NCBI RefSeq assembly: GCF_013166655.1 | Contig: NZ_JABKCA010000048.1 | Coordinates: forward strand, 1 to 43,990 | Origin: Lentimicrobium sp. L6 | Lineage (GTDB): Bacteria > Bacteroidota > Bacteroidia > Bacteroidales > UBA12170 | DNA: 43,990 bases | Direction: 5' to 3' | Translations under genes and position numbers: made by a program | In this document: piece by piece, positions 23,639 to 29,419 of the stretch | Layout: each line of letters opens with the position of its first letter | Numbering within the stretch: the stretch's first letter is position 1 | The notes under the pieces: model-generated | Databases searched by the model: none | The model's input: only the letters and a program-made list of their open reading frames with translations | What the model was told of the DNA's origin: nothing

Positions 23639-24825
23639 TTATTTTTGAATGATCAGTTTCTTTGTGATGACTCCTTTTTCAAATTCAATGGCTAAAAAAT
23701 ATAATCCATTTTCAAAGCCGCTAATATCAAGTTGGTAGTATTGTTTTATAATATCACCACTTATCATCAAGTTCTGTCCCAACTCATTTAGTATTTTTAT
23801 ATTCTTTATTTGGTGCTCAGCTTCTATTTTTAATATACTTGCAGCGGGGTTGGGATATATAGAAGTATTAATCTCTAGTTCATTGGTACCCCAAACCATC
23901 ATAGCACAAGCCACATTTGAAGGTTCAGATTCGCCCGCTTGACTATACACGGCGGTAATTTCATAGCAAATATCCTCTGGGCCTATATTATCATCGTAAT
24001 ATATAGTATCAAAATAAGGTTCTGAATTTATTAATTCCCCTTCTCGGTATATATTATAGTGTAAGAGTTCCTTATTGTCATAAATGGATGGAGGAGTCCA
24101 GTTTAAAACTGCAGTGCTTTGATTAGAACCAGTCCTGAAAGCAATTAACTCTTTTGGTGGGTTAGGAGATTCACTATAGCCAGCATCTAGACAGTTTTCT
24201 TCAGAATCGGAATCCCAAGAGTGCTCGCCACCATCTTCGGTATAAACTCTCCTCAAACAATAAGTAAAGTATCCTGGGTCAACATTTTCATATAAAAAAG
24301 AGGTGTCAGGTTAAGGAACGAACATCAAAAGTTCATCGTTTTTATAGATATTGGTTCCAATACATTCGTAATCATCTTCTTTTGATGAAATGGGATTCCA
24401 AGTGAATAAAAAATCATTACCAAAGTCTTCAATTTGAACATTCTCGACTCCTTGGAAGGACCCAGAAGGGAGGTAAATAAAATCAAAATACACGGCATCA
24501 GACGAACCTAAACTATATATTGCTGCTATTTTTATTGTATATATTTGGTTTGGAATAAATAAAGGAAACCAAACACTATTTTCTTCAAGGTAATATCAGT
24601 TTCCCCAAATGTAATCATCAATAAATATTTCATCCATCCAGATTCGATAAAACATAAAATCATTTTGAGATTCATTTACAGTGTCCCAACTTATGAACCC
24701 AGTTGGGGTAACATAAAGATTGGTTGGAGCTTCAAAATCATCTTGTCCTTTATTTTGAGCAACTCAAAAAATGATTGAGAAAAAATGAAAATCAAAAGAA
24801 ATAATCTGATAAGTGGTGTTTTCAT
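23639..24825 (-). pseudogene. Decayed T9SS cargo with fibronectin-III-like modules
   Basis: A broken gene for a secreted protein of about 395 aa. From ATG 24825 a signal peptide is readable (MKTPLIRLFLLIFIFSQSFF). The frame is then lost by what looks like a 1-nt deletion around 24767. In the next frame the protein continues (VAQNKGQDDFEAPTNLYV) with two in-frame stops, TGA at 24598-24596 and TAA at 24313-24311. Two or three fibronectin-III-like modules are visible (for example FLFTWNPISSKEDDYECIG and TAVLNWTPPSIYDN). The end is a T9SS type A sorting domain (SIYPNPAASILKIEAEH and ISGFENGLYFLAIEF). All lesions are in one otherwise continuous frame, which fits decay rather than separate genes. 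Confidence 0.82.
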
Positions 24826-24972
24826 AATGCATAAATTGTAAAAATGTGGTCAAGTACCCAATAAAATAATAAACTGTAAAGTTAATAATAAATAGACATA
24901 AAAACAGTTATAAAGGTTTCGTTTGAAATTAATATATATTTTGAAAACATTTCATAGCTTAAATTATAATCA

Positions 24973-25004: not shown

Positions 25005-25688
25005 ATGGAAAATAAGTGGAATCTCTTTGAGAAGTTTTTGATCACAGAAAATGTGAACTTATCAGTCAATGATTTTTTAGTGAGCTCAGTTCTTATCATC
25101 ATTATGAGTTGGTTATTGTCTTTAACCTACCAAAAGGTAGCTAAGACTCTGTCAAATAGAAAAGACTTTGGCGCGAATTTTATGCTTTTGGCTTTTACAA
25201 CCATGTTGATTATTACTATCGTAAAATCTTCACTAGCCTTATCATTAGGTTTGGTAGGTGCGCTTTCTATTGTTCGATTTAGAGCTGCTATTAAGGAACC
25301 AGAAGAATTAGCTTATCTATTCTTTGCCATTGCCATGGGATTAGGACTTGGTGCCAATCAAGTATATATTGTAGCTACAGCTTTTGGTGTTTTAATGGTG
25401 ATCTTATGGTCTCGTTTCTTCTTAAATGGACGCGATGAGTCACAAAATCTTTTCGTTACCTTAAATACTGAAGGTAATTCAGATGTGAAACTTAAAGAAG
25501 TTCAGTCCATTATGAAAAGCCATTTTAATAAGTTTCAGCTCAAGCGCTACGATGAAAATCAAGATACTTTAGAAATTTCCTTTGTTGCTGATATTAAAAA
25601 ATCTGAAAAATTAGAAGCTTTCCGCACTGAAGTAAGAACTAAATACCCAGAATTGAATATATCTTTCTTAGATAGTAAAGCTTATTAA
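25005..25688 (+). CDS. DUF4956 membrane protein
   Basis: A 227-aa inner-membrane protein of the DUF4956 family. About four membrane segments lie at residues 24-42, 59-73, 76-90 and 103-135. The loop GALSIVRFRAAIKEPEE (85-101) is the family hallmark. A soluble alpha/beta domain (about 145-227) follows. The start is ATG 25005 because the longer frame begins inside the -7 box. The stop and the next start share one base (TAATG), so translation is coupled. In many bacteria I recall this family next to VTC-type tunnel enzymes and CotH kinases, as here. It may be the membrane anchor or channel for the neighbouring polymerase; biochemical function is unknown. Confidence 0.88.
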   Translation: MENKWNLFEKFLITENVNLSVNDFLVSSVLIIIMSWLLSLTYQKVAKTLSNRKDFGANFMLLAFTTMLIITIVKSSLALSLGLVGALSIVRFRAAIKEPEELAYLFFAIAMGLGLGANQVYIVATAFGVLMVILWSRFFLNGRDESQNLFVTLNTEGNSDVKLKEVQSIMKSHFNKFQLKRYDENQDTLEISFVADIKKSEKLEAFRTEVRTKYPELNISFLDSKAY

Positions 25689-26401
25689 TGGCCTTAAGTA
25701 AAGAATATACGGAGTTAAAAACCAGTCGATTCGAGCGTAAGTTCGTCATTGAGAGAGGTGGTGTGCCTTATGTAGAGAAAATTGTAAAGATGAATCCTGG
25801 CGCCTTTCGACCTGCTTATTACGAGCGTCAAATTAATAATGTCTACTTCGATACTGAAAATCTTCGTAATTATTACGATAATCATTTTGGCAAAAGTAAA
25901 CGAGTGAAAGTGCGAATTAGATGGTATGGTGATACTTTTACCAAAGTAGAATCTCCTATCTTAGAATTTAAATTGAAGACTGGAGCTGTTGGCAGGAAAT
26001 TGTCTTTCAAATTAAATTCATTTAATTTTCATCGAAATATAACAAAACAAGAAATTCAAAAGTTATTTAGTTCATCGGATATTCCGGCATGGGTAGTGGA
26101 TGAGCTCTTGTATTTAACACCAACTCTTTTGAATACTTACAAGAGAAAGTATTATAAATCATTTAATAAACATTATAGATTTACCATTGATCATACGATG
26201 GCGTTTTATAATTTCAGTTCTAAAAACAGAGGGTTTTTGGAAATGGTTAAGCAAAAAGACATTACTGTACTGGAATTGAAATATGATATGCAGTATGATA
26301 CTACAGTTGGTAATGTGACTAAATATCTGCCTTTTCGATTAGGGAAGTTTTCTAAATATGTATTTGGTATAGAGGTTTTTAATTATCATTTAGCAATATA
26401 A
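25688..26401 (+). CDS. VTC/polyphosphate-polymerase-domain protein
   Basis: A 237-aa member of the tunnel-fold superfamily related to the catalytic domain of yeast Vtc4, which makes polyphosphate from ATP. The basic and acidic tunnel residues are in the expected order: RFERKF (14-19), NNVYFDT (50-56), VRIRWY (75-80), LEFKLK (92-97), KRKYY with Arg 153, RFTID (164-168) and VLELKYD (194-200). The set looks intact, so catalysis is plausible, but substrate and product are untested. There are no membrane segments, so it would sit on the inner face, probably with the DUF4956 protein. Coupled to that gene by a 1-nt overlap; the CotH gene starts 3 nt after its stop. Confidence 0.88.
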   Translation: MALSKEYTELKTSRFERKFVIERGGVPYVEKIVKMNPGAFRPAYYERQINNVYFDTENLRNYYDNHFGKSKRVKVRIRWYGDTFTKVESPILEFKLKTGAVGRKLSFKLNSFNFHRNITKQEIQKLFSSSDIPAWVVDELLYLTPTLLNTYKRKYYKSFNKHYRFTIDHTMAFYNFSSKNRGFLEMVKQKDITVLELKYDMQYDTTVGNVTKYLPFRLGKFSKYVFGIEVFNYHLAI

Positions 26402-26404
26402 AAT

Positions 26405-29400
26405 ATGCAAAATCATACCCATATCATACATTCTTTTAAGTGGTATTTTAATATAGCATTTTTTGCTATTTCTATTTGGTTTGCTTCTTGTCAATTTCAG
26501 GATACTAATGATGGATTAAGACCTGAGATTTATTGTTCTGTCGATTCTGCCGCTTTAGATGAGGATAATGTTTTTTGGTATGATTCAGGCATGCCCTTGA
26601 TAAATCAAAACATGAAGCTTGGAGGATTTTTGTCTTCAAAAGAGAGTCATTCAGGAGTGCACAGTGTATTATTGACTAAAGAAAAAGCTTATGGATTAAG
26701 TACTGACTTTGAAAATATAAAAGGAGATGAGCGATTTTTGATAAGTGTTTGGCGGAAGGGCAATTCAGCAGAATCTGCTCTTGTTGTCCAAGGCGATATT
26801 GTAAGAAGTTTGTGGATCGGTCAAAAAGAATCAATTGAAAAAGACGAAAATGATTGGGAGAAAATTGAGATTGAGGTTCAGATTCCTCCAAATATTTCTC
26901 TTCTGAAAGTTTATGTGTGGAATATAAATGGCGATTCTGTATATTTTGATGACCTGAGGATAAAAGAATTAGGAGTGGTTAAATACCCCGATTTTAAAGA
27001 TGATGAAAAGGTACATTTGTATTTCTCTGATTCTAAGATGAAGAAGTTCAATGAAAAGCGTTATAATGCTTTTATGAGTAGAATCCATTTTAGTGACGGA
27101 GAATGGATGAAAGGAGTTATGTCAGATGAAAACAGGGTCATGCCAATTAAGGCTCGCCTTAAGGGGGATTGGCTAGACCATTTGGAAGGACAAAAGTGGT
27201 CGTTTAGAACAAAAATGAGAGATGATTATACCTTTAAAAGAATGAGAGTCTTTTCATTACAAAACCCTGTTACACGGTACTTTGTACATGAGTATTTTGC
27301 CCACCAATTGTTTAATCAAGAAGATGTTTTAACTACAAGGTATGGGTTCACTCCTGTTTATTTAAATGGTCAGAGTATAGGTATCTATGCTTATGAAGAG
27401 CATTTTGCTAAACAATTAATCGAATATAATTTGCGACGTGAAGGGCCTATCTTAAAGATTGATGAAAACCCTTTGTGGAGAGAGCGACAAAAGGAAATGA
27501 CTACCGATCTCATATATAATTATCCATATTATGAGGCAGCTAAAGTTGGTGCCTTTGGCTTGAGTAAAACCTTGGCCAAACCTAATTTAAAAAGCCAATT
27601 TGAAATTGCACATAGTTTAGTATATCAATATAAAAATTTATTAAGTCCAGTAGAGGAATTGTTTAATGTTGATGTATTGGCCAGATACTGGGCATTAATT
27701 GATATCACAAATGGTAGACATGGTATTGTTTGGCACAACCAACGACTTTATTTTAACCCAGTTATTTGTAAGCTAGAGCCTATTGATTTTGATAATTTCA
27801 CTGATTATTATGATGAGGAAGAAGAACCAATTTTATCTGCATTTATCATGAATAAAAACTGGATAGGGGAGTCTGAACATCAGATGTTAAAGCATATTTT
27901 TACTTCTAAAGTATTTCTCGATAAATATCTATTCTATTTAGAGAAATATACTGATCCCATATTCTTGCAAGAATTTATTGACAGTGAATTGGAAGAAACA
28001 AGTCGCTACACGAAATTAATTGCAGAAGAGTTCACTACTTATGATTTCGATCCTCATTTTATCATGAGAAATGCTGAGATTTTGCGTCCCCAATTGCCTA
28101 AGCTTAGGGATAGTATAGAATCTGGAGTTTATGATAAAACCGAGCTAATTGTAGAAAATGTAAAGGGAGATACCACCTATTTACCTGCTGTTATACCTTT
28201 TTTTGTTAATGCATATTATTCCCAAGAACAATTGGGTATCGCTAATATTAAAGTTGAGAATTTCTTTGGTAAAGAAATTGAAGTGCTAGGTTTGGCAGAT
28301 GAAAACAGTAAAATGCTTTATTTGTTCGAATCACCTTTTTATGTTCAAGCTTATCAAGGTAATATGGCTGATACCACTATTGAGTATAGATATACCTCTA
28401 ATGCTAACCAGTTGGCCTATCGTGTGATAGGACATGAGGAGATTCTGTTCTCAGAACTCTCGTTGTTTAGAAAGAATACAAATCCTAGTCCATATCAGGA
28501 ATTATTGAGGAACTTTAACATAGAAACTTGTGAGTTATTTGAAGACAGAGGAGATTCGTTAATAGTTAGAGGAATTCATGAATTAACAAGCAAAGTTTTA
28601 GTACCTAAGGGTAAAGTAGTAGTTTTTGAAGCAGGAGCTCAAGTGAATATCCTAAATGAAGGAACCATTATTTCGCATTCGCCTGTATATATGCTAGGGA
28701 CGAAAGAGCAGCCTATTAAAATATACTCAACTGATACTACTGCAAATGCATTTATTGTGCTACAAGCAAATAAAAGAAGTCTATTGTCTCATGTGGTTTT
28801 CGAAGACTTAAACACACTTGAGTATGATGGTTGGAACCTAACTGGAGCAGTTAATTTTTACGAATCAGATGTTGATATTACAAATTGCAGCTTCCTTAAA
28901 AATCATTGTGAAGATGCGTTAAACATCATACGATCCGATTTTCATGTGACCAAATCTAAGTTTGAAGATATCTATGCCGATGCTTTTGATTCTGATTTTT
29001 GTACAGGTTTATTAGATTATTCAAGCTTCGACAGGGTAGGAAACGATGCCATCGATTTTAGTACCAGCCAAATTTATATAGAAAATTGTGAAATCACCAA
29101 TATCCAAGATAAAGGAATTAGTGGAGGTGAAGGTTCAACACTTTGGGTGAAGAATACTAATATTACTAATTGTAATATTGGAGCTGCTTCTAAAGATCTA
29201 TCTCATGTTAGTATTGAGAATGTAAATATCGAAAATTGTTATTATGGTTTGGTAGCATTAAGAAAGAAACCAGAGTATGGTACAGCAGTTTTTGATACCA
29301 AGAAACTCAAGCTCGTGAATTGTCAGGTTAAGCATTTAATAGAAAAGAACTCAGTGTTGAATTACAACGGTAGAAAGATAGAGGGAACCCGTGAAAAGGT

Positions 29401-29419
29401 TGCTGAAATGTTTTATTAA
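26405..29419 (+). CDS. CotH-kinase lipoprotein with C-terminal beta-helix
   Basis: A 1004-aa predicted lipoprotein: signal segment ending FASC with lipid-anchoring Cys 29. A carbohydrate-binding-like beta-sandwich may span about 50-200. The CotH kinase domain follows (about 210-560), with LKGDWLDHLEGQKW (near 249), VYLNGQSIGIYAYEEHF (near 318), WHNQRLYFNP (near 443) and the metal-binding motif LEPIDFDNF (near 457). Residues about 740-980 are a right-handed beta-helix with repeats such as VDITNCSFLKNHCEDALNI and IYIENCEITNIQDKGISGG. CotH proteins are atypical protein kinases known from spore coats; the target here is unknown. It ends the operon and overlaps a convergent micro-gene by 4 nt. Confidence 0.88.
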   Translation: MQNHTHIIHSFKWYFNIAFFAISIWFASCQFQDTNDGLRPEIYCSVDSAALDEDNVFWYDSGMPLINQNMKLGGFLSSKESHSGVHSVLLTKEKAYGLSTDFENIKGDERFLISVWRKGNSAESALVVQGDIVRSLWIGQKESIEKDENDWEKIEIEVQIPPNISLLKVYVWNINGDSVYFDDLRIKELGVVKYPDFKDDEKVHLYFSDSKMKKFNEKRYNAFMSRIHFSDGEWMKGVMSDENRVMPIKARLKGDWLDHLEGQKWSFRTKMRDDYTFKRMRVFSLQNPVTRYFVHEYFAHQLFNQEDVLTTRYGFTPVYLNGQSIGIYAYEEHFAKQLIEYNLRREGPILKIDENPLWRERQKEMTTDLIYNYPYYEAAKVGAFGLSKTLAKPNLKSQFEIAHSLVYQYKNLLSPVEELFNVDVLARYWALIDITNGRHGIVWHNQRLYFNPVICKLEPIDFDNFTDYYDEEEEPILSAFIMNKNWIGESEHQMLKHIFTSKVFLDKYLFYLEKYTDPIFLQEFIDSELEETSRYTKLIAEEFTTYDFDPHFIMRNAEILRPQLPKLRDSIESGVYDKTELIVENVKGDTTYLPAVIPFFVNAYYSQEQLGIANIKVENFFGKEIEVLGLADENSKMLYLFESPFYVQAYQGNMADTTIEYRYTSNANQLAYRVIGHEEILFSELSLFRKNTNPSPYQELLRNFNIETCELFEDRGDSLIVRGIHELTSKVLVPKGKVVVFEAGAQVNILNEGTIISHSPVYMLGTKEQPIKIYSTDTTANAFIVLQANKRSLLSHVVFEDLNTLEYDGWNLTGAVNFYESDVDITNCSFLKNHCEDALNIIRSDFHVTKSKFEDIYADAFDSDFCTGLLDYSSFDRVGNDAIDFSTSQIYIENCEITNIQDKGISGGEGSTLWVKNTNITNCNIGAASKDLSHVSIENVNIENCYYGLVALRKKPEYGTAVFDTKKLKLVNCQVKHLIEKNSVLNYNGRKIEGTREKVAEMFY

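Follow-up and report, generated by a model that had tools for sequence, protein, structure and literature searches.

A DUF4956, VTC and CotH gene trio in Lentimicrobium sp. L6 as a candidate phosphate-polymer module of the bacterial envelope

The DNA analysed here, referred to as the window, is a stretch of 43,990 nucleotides from Lentimicrobium sp. L6 (contig NZ_JABKCA010000048.1, contig 48 in a draft assembly with 195 contigs, a size of 5.14 Mb and a completeness of 96.5%). It carries three closely packed genes, encoding a DUF4956 membrane protein, a VTC-family protein and a lipoprotein with a CotH domain, which may constitute an envelope-directed counterpart of the VTC complex of yeast. The three genes are located as follows.

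25005..25688, + strand: DUF4956 gene (PF16316), ATG at 25005 and stop at 25688, 227 aa
25688..26401, + strand: VTC gene (PF09359), 237 aa
26405..29419, + strand: CotH/beta-helix lipoprotein gene (PF08757 and PF13229), 1004 aa

Based on the open reading frame coordinates, DUF4956 and VTC overlap by 1 nt and VTC is separated from CotH by 3 nt, so that the tight packing described in a first-pass annotation of this DNA is confirmed by coordinates and Pfam alike. The flanking genes, an aldose epimerase upstream and YaaA and an ABC transporter downstream, run on the opposite strand on both sides, and the trio is therefore probably an operon of its own. The order DUF4956-VTC-CotH is kept in all four relatives compared by name (three Bacteroidota metagenome-assembled genomes and one record titled Verrucomicrobia), and the genes are spaced by -4 to +11 nt; the VTC identities of these relatives are 87, 54, 51 and 50%. 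In a phylum sample of 247 genomes, VTC was found in 43, DUF4956 in 68 and CotH in 96. DUF4956 is present in 43/43 VTC genomes compared to 68/247 overall (hypergeometric P ~1e-30, a value that overstates independence, the sampled genomes being kin), and it lies within 1.5 kb of VTC on the same strand at 45 of 49 VTC places, a distance count for which the coordinates were copied manually. Of the other four places, two have a same-strand DUF4956 2.7-2.9 kb away, one is a 162-nt fragment and one is on contig C19 of the window genome. The statement in the first-pass annotation that the three families recur as neighbors thus stands well beyond chance. CotH occurs somewhere in 42/43 VTC genomes as read from tables, the exception being G238. 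VTC was found in 74 of 149 genomes from the same order as the window genome, and in 14 control genomes the VTC and DUF4956 matches fall in the same three. No plasmid copy of VTC was found by tblastn. An apparent VTC fusion in G135 was discarded, since its 787-aa frame looks like a chance long frame in GC-rich DNA.

It is noted that the window genome (G000) seemingly holds a second module, of the short-VTC type described below, split between two contigs: C11 (locus L013) carries CotH, DUF4956 and a DUF2490 barrel, and C19 (L014) carries VTC with a DUF2490 barrel of its own. The DUF4956 counterpart of the C19 VTC may be the one on C11.

The window VTC protein scores 92.8 bits against PF09359 (curated cut-off 23; E 3e-26). 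A profile built from 10 bacterial VTC sequences matches the Vtc4 structure in the PDB (3g3q) with an E value of 7e-14, and Vtc subunits account for all nine matches with an E value of 1 or less. Alignment with Vtc4 places the residues of interest at the following positions.

25913..25921, + strand: VTC codons 76-78, R76 and R78 being equivalent to Vtc4 R264 and R266
26273..26275, + strand: VTC codon 196, E196 being equivalent to Vtc4 E426
26345..26356, + strand: VTC codons 220-223 (KFSK), K220 and K223 aligning with Vtc4 K455 and K458

The tunnel residues, described as apparently intact in the first-pass annotation, are indeed so in the alignment with Vtc4 and across 62 bacterial VTC proteins, in which R76, K95, R153 and K223 are conserved in 62/62 and R78 and E196 in 61/62 each. 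K220 is kept in 17 of the 18 proteins of the window's own clade. In Vtc4, K281, R361 and K458 presumably line the tunnel. R264 and R266 of Vtc4 were reported to be essential for polyphosphate synthesis (PMC8749416), and R264A/R266A/E426N is the inactivating triple mutant, with impaired activity, that was used for the cryo-electron microscopy structure (PMC9911596). We propose that the window VTC is a predicted polyphosphate polymerase with the triphosphate-tunnel fold.

The DUF4956 protein is recognized by PF16316 with 62.3 bits against a cut-off of 30.6 (E 6e-17). Its hydrophobic helices are followed by a C-terminal beta-alpha-beta-beta-alpha-beta domain, a secondary structure read from a low-confidence AlphaFold model (predicted local distance difference test score, pLDDT, of 61.8). 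In an hhalign comparison of only 15 with 4 sequences, DUF4956 and MgtC align with a probability of 96.8 and an E value of 2.3e-10 over 191 columns, the membrane and C-terminal parts being alike, and by this profile similarity DUF4956 is MgtC-like. One short feature is invariant in the family, both arginines being present in 57/57 aligned DUF4956 proteins.

25275..25283, + strand: DUF4956 codons 91-93, Arg-Phe-Arg (SIVRFRAAIKEPEE), R91 and R93, position computed from the start codon

A phmmer search of the PDB with DUF4956 alone returned only two matches, with E values of 0.9 and 2. The tail of the low-confidence model resembles the PII-like protein SbtB, none of the matches having an E value below 0.001. 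We propose DUF4956 as a putative membrane partner or translocator for VTC.

A different assignment of this pair has to be weighed here. VTC could be another kind of tunnel enzyme, either a triphosphatase or a nucleotide-sensing protein, with the MgtC-like DUF4956 sensing or regulating phosphate or ATP homeostasis and CotH as a downstream target. Hydrolytic tunnel enzymes carry an ExExK motif. Position 16 of VTC, two residues before Lys18, is Glu or Asp in 60/62 bacterial proteins, nearer to that motif, whereas Vtc4 has Thr198 (RQTTK) at this position. The MgtC-like character of DUF4956 and its ferredoxin/PII-like tail, the latter of low confidence, would also fit a sensor. However, the PDB profile search matches solely Vtc proteins, the residues required for synthesis by Vtc4 are kept, and the genes are tightly linked with envelope genes. 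We regard this assignment as unlikely.

The third protein was described earlier as a 1004-aa lipoprotein with a CotH domain and a beta-helix, and the features listed below agree with that description.

26480..26491, + strand: lipobox F-A-S-C, residues 26-29, with Cys29 (sequence motif)
27155..28003, + strand: CotH domain, residues 251-533 (PF08757)
27719..27721, + strand: His439, in place of the Asp matching D228 of Bacillus subtilis CotH (32 CotH domains aligned with 5jd9)
27791..27793, + strand: Asp463, the retained equivalent of B. subtilis D251 (alignments)
28937..29335, + strand: beta-helix region, residues 845-977 (PF13229)

An N-terminal beta-sandwich follows the lipobox, the CotH fold lies after it, and the C-terminal beta-helix is right-handed. 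The Pfam score of the CotH domain is modest, at 36.8 bits against a cut-off of 23.8, and that of Beta_helix is 38.3 against 25.9. A profile of 12 CotH domains matches the CotH structure from B. cereus (5jd9) with an E value of 1.4e-27; no match was returned by a PDB profile search with five full-length CotH proteins or by phmmer with the window CotH alone. The window protein thus belongs to the same fold family as the spore-coat kinase CotH of B. subtilis and B. cereus and keeps the Lys, Glu and D251 equivalents. In contrast to the spore-coat protein, it is a lipoprotein, it has an extra beta-sandwich and beta-helix, and it carries a histidine at the D228 position.

The D228Q and D251A mutants of B. 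subtilis CotH are reported to be catalytically inactive (PMC7821199). The D228 equivalence was derived from the two aligned aspartates of 5jd9, which are 23 residues apart, the same spacing as between D228 and D251. At this position, the CotH proteins of the window group have His in 11/12 and Asp in 0/12 (the exception, L159, has Ser; this locus has two CotH genes, of which one was aligned), compared to Asp in 18/20 of the other CotH proteins from the fetched loci. The D251 equivalent is kept in 12/12 in one alignment (A6) and in 11/12 window-group proteins in the alignment of 32 domains; Glu332 is invariant and Lys264 nearly invariant in A6 (n=12). The window-clade CotH therefore cannot be assumed to be a known kinase, as it had been labelled, because the residue whose replacement inactivates the B. 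subtilis enzyme corresponds to a histidine in this clade. Either its chemistry appears to have changed or its activity to have been lost. In the latter case the protein would be a pseudokinase, a glycan-binding surface scaffold without phosphotransfer, and the trio would have no kinase step, an arrangement compatible with the other readings. The loss of the aspartate throughout the clade and the modest Pfam score would agree with such a loss. However, a decayed pseudokinase would not need the pocket residues Lys264, Glu332 and Asp463, all of which are kept, and the histidine itself is strongly conserved. A pseudokinase is a serious possibility, even though we lean against it.

In the AlphaFold model of the lipoprotein, the beta-helix has pLDDT mostly above 80 and most of the kinase part is below 50, and the model of the kinase part was not used. 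Foldseek with the model gives six matches with an E value below 0.001, listed without the region that each covers, and all are glucanases of glycoside hydrolase family 87. Weaker matches include pectinases, alginate-active enzymes, phage tailspikes, toxin translocation components and carbohydrate-binding modules. We infer that the N-terminal sandwich is a carbohydrate-binding-like part, an assignment helped by PF02018 matches in L017 and in a fragment of L154. At L154:8342-11017, pieces resembling the N-terminal and beta-helix parts of a window-type CotH lie on either side of a secreted phosphatase gene, which suggests a broken or rearranged CotH gene.

A tree of 62 VTC proteins resolves three groups: a long-VTC group (25 proteins, support 97/90), a short-VTC group (19 proteins, 100/100) and the window group (18 proteins, 99/98). 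The bootstrap of the tree had not settled and long branches meet, so that no use was made of the order in which the clades branch. DUF4956 is upstream of VTC in 18/18 members of the window group, whereas VTC precedes DUF4956 in the long and short groups except at L106 and L158; the window VTC is, on its sequence, a member of a separate clade with reversed gene order. L158 had been considered a window-type member and was removed on the evidence of the tree.

Each group has its own neighbors. Within two genes of the VTC/DUF4956 pair, an HlyD adaptor is found at 26 of 48 loci, a DUF2490-like barrel at 15 and CotH at 16, compared to 1, 0 and 2, respectively, among 350 genes farther out at the same loci. 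At least one of the three is present within two genes at 44/48 loci and none at 4/48. These 48 loci are the 49 VTC places minus the 162-nt fragment, and they do not include seven further loci, which were retrieved because of a DUF4956 with no VTC beside it. It should be mentioned that the HlyD and barrel profiles were seeded partly from these same neighbors and that Pfam was used to verify only three of the HlyD proteins and four of the barrels; the evidence is therefore the contrast between near and far genes and not the raw count. HlyD accompanies the long group and the DUF2490-like barrel the short group. In the window's own clade, CotH is the only one of these three partner types; it adjoins the pair or lies inside it in 12/18, with two cases undecidable (L147 at a contig end, L154 in fragments). 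Twelve of these 18 members come from hand-picked loci, chosen mostly by match length, so their number is no measure of the frequency of the group itself. The conserved order in relatives, the co-occurrence of VTC with DUF4956 and this near/far contrast rule out chance clustering, and linkage across three VTC clades refutes the idea that the genes are neighbors without joint function, to which we give practically no credence.

The first-pass annotation knew of no joint function for the three families. The trio already has a context in print, where it accompanies Pel polysaccharide clusters of Gram-positive bacteria as an accessory (PMC7112168, PMC12345266). According to the passages of PMC7112168 (2020) on these clusters, CotH, "a poly-phosphate polymerase", DUF4956 and DUF4832 adjoin pel genes in streptococci and clostridia, and a diguanylate cyclase/phosphodiesterase gene replaces DUF4832 beside the pel trio in bifidobacteria. 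In Streptococcus intermedius, deletion of SIR_1592, described as MgtC plus ACT, gave more Pel and less aggregation in sputum medium, and deletion of the CotH gene SIR_1594 gave less Pel and less aggregation in the same medium (PMC12345266, 2025). The SIR_1592-1594 trio has the same three contiguous families as the window. The window trio differs from it in that its genome has no PelG match and in its Gram-negative setting; the S. intermedius CotH has FN3, and that of the window is of the His type with a beta-helix. Two further published loci resemble the module. In NELoc-2 of Clostridium perfringens, VTC and CotH genes are tabulated (PMC2879425, 2010): two VTC genes are each followed by a membrane-located "tubulin" protein of 222-226 aa and then by CotH. 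The "tubulin" proteins are, at a guess from size and place, DUF4956. In the passages of PMC2879425 on this locus there is no discussion of a phosphate system. BT3498-99 of Bacteroides thetaiotaomicron are listed as DUF4956 and DUF2490 (PMC10434189, 2023), an arrangement that agrees with the short-group neighborhood.

These reports raise the possibility that the trio is an accessory of matrix polysaccharide, tuning its production or retention, in which case CotH would act on some component of the matrix or envelope, DUF4956/VTC would regulate phosphate or nucleotide supply, and bulk export of polyphosphate would not be the point. The position beside pel genes, the Pel and aggregation phenotypes of the membrane-protein and CotH deletions, and the glucanases as best structural matches of the CotH model are all in its favor. 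MBOAT or O-antigen-ligase genes near L114 and L150 and glycosyltransferase-like genes near L158 and L148 (the latter by eye) also make a polysaccharide link outside Pel possible. Against it, PelG, the sole pel marker searched, has no match in the window genome, exceeds the cut-off in 4/247 phylum genomes and in none with VTC; any PelG match occurs in 11/247, including sub-cut-off matches in the VTC genomes G055 and G135 on other contigs than VTC. The window trio is not contiguous with pelDEADAFG, its adjacent genes being those named above, and no glycan synthase is seen next to it. A Pel locus is thereby ruled out for the window trio by the lack of a PelG match, and as a rule for the phylum by the count of 4/247. 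We consider the polysaccharide accessory rather unlikely overall. According to the part of PMC12345266 that deals with synteny, the authors' own analyses did not find the trio outside the Pel locus; if that statement was intended to cover all bacteria, it fails in Bacteroidota, where the trio is a free-standing module. Its function is probably wider than Pel, given that this free-standing module has an envelope-protein gene within two genes at 44/48 loci. We found no description of the free-standing module in the open-access literature, nor of its links with HlyD or DUF2490, though neither of these terms was searched.

In yeast, a tunnel-fold polymerase mounted on a membrane channel couples synthesis of polyphosphate with its translocation (PMC9911596). 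The yeast VTC complex, with Vtc4 as polymerase and Vtc1/Vtc3 as membrane channel, shares with the window trio the tunnel fold, the same catalytic residues and a partner membrane protein. In contrast, the window proteins are small and separate, no SPX domain was found in them by Pfam, the partner is MgtC-like, and the setting is a bacterial envelope rather than a vacuole. By this analogy, the module could be an envelope-directed bacterial analogue of the yeast synthase-translocase that supplies the envelope side with a phosphate polymer, which is probably polyphosphate, and the partners acting there would differ from clade to clade. We hold this reading tentatively and at a little less than even confidence. 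VTC at the cytoplasmic face would build polyphosphate from the terminal phosphate of ATP. The DUF4956 protein, which is MgtC-like, would anchor VTC and move the chain over the inner membrane, perhaps via its invariant arginine pair, and the CotH/beta-helix lipoprotein on the far side would receive or use the product at a glycan surface. In the sister clades, the HlyD adaptor or the DUF2490-like outer-membrane barrel would fill the outer-envelope role. The gene linkage, the conservation of the polymerase active site, the membrane and lipoprotein signatures and the recurrent envelope partners support this reading; the polyphosphate product, its translocation and its use by CotH are what we infer from them. 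The idea of an envelope phosphate system put forward in the first-pass annotation accordingly keeps its co-occurrence, its Vtc4-type active site and its CotH lipoprotein, and loses the premise that CotH is a known kinase.

Several observations weigh against the synthase-translocase reading. In the passages of PMC12345266 on the S. intermedius VTC gene (SIR_1593), its mutant aggregated and no change in Pel or aggregation is reported, whereas both neighbor deletions have a phenotype. Because the VTC deletion is without reported effect and the SIR_1592 and SIR_1594 deletions change Pel in opposite directions, the S. intermedius trio does not behave as one linear pathway. DUF4956 is not solely a VTC partner, since 25 of 68 DUF4956 genomes have no VTC. 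These two points are the strongest against a linear pathway. The Arg-x-Arg pair appears to mark the DUF4956 family without being exclusive to it, because R-G-R occurs at the matching place in L163, one of four MgtC sequences. The model of DUF4956, given its pLDDT, is too weak to show a channel and offers support for topology at most. In the window group, no HlyD or DUF2490-like gene is labelled in the fetched stretches of 18 loci, and CotH is absent beside 4/18 VTC genes (L151, L152, L156, L157). Finally, the window genome encodes a single PF00719 protein, in which no signal sequence is visible, and this rules out a secreted pyrophosphatase in the window's own system.

Phosphate-active or export neighbors (pyrophosphatase, metallophosphatases, HlyD and DUF2490-like barrels) are found in relatives and not in the window. 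Three of the four named relatives have an inorganic pyrophosphatase gene: in L016 and L018 it immediately precedes the trio, and in L017 it lies three genes before it. The encoded proteins have lipoprotein-type N-termini; a strict motif fits one of the three, inspection by eye gives INAC and IYSC for the other two, and the frame from L016 is short. Signal-like N-termini are also seen on calcineurin-type phosphatases encoded close to the module in L150, L154 and L017, the last with two of them; another, in L148, scores below the cut-off. Those of L017 and L154 end in a secretion-sorting domain. Neither the window nor its closest relative, L015, has a pyrophosphatase or calcineurin-type phosphatase beside the trio. 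The window genome carries PPK1, so that VTC would be a second, membrane-coupled route to polyphosphate.

A bolder variant is that polyphosphate exported by VTC/DUF4956 serves as phosphoryl donor outside the cytoplasm. CotH, with His439 in place of the usual catalytic Asp, would take phosphate from it, perhaps through a phosphohistidine, and phosphorylate a surface glycan or protein. We judge it improbable. If true, kinases outside the cytoplasm could run independently of ATP, and the lipoprotein pyrophosphatase and secreted phosphatases of relatives would clear or recycle leftovers. The trio raises the questions of whether a VTC-type synthase-translocase serves bacteria in the export of polyphosphate and of how exported kinase-fold proteins function where ATP is scarce, and the exchange of His for Asp is a precise target for biochemistry.

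Further observations concern individual loci. Five DUF4956 loci were fetched from VTC-less genomes, and in two of them (L130 and L133) an HlyD gene directly follows; DUF4956 and HlyD may be paired there with some other partner. L018, the record titled Verrucomicrobia, shares the trio with L016, a Flavobacteriales metagenome-assembled genome, and the genes downstream look similar in both; this may reflect a wrong title, transferred DNA or misbinning. In the window, an apparent remnant of a secreted-protein gene lies upstream of the trio at 23639-24850 on the minus strand, with a 205-aa frame and a type IX secretion system-type sorting domain at its end by eye, and the DNA on the trio side resembles a broken continuation of this frame. 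In L015, only ~276 nt separate DUF4956 from the start of the aldose epimerase gene before it, and the remnant therefore seems, by comparison of the two sequences, to be an insertion in the window.

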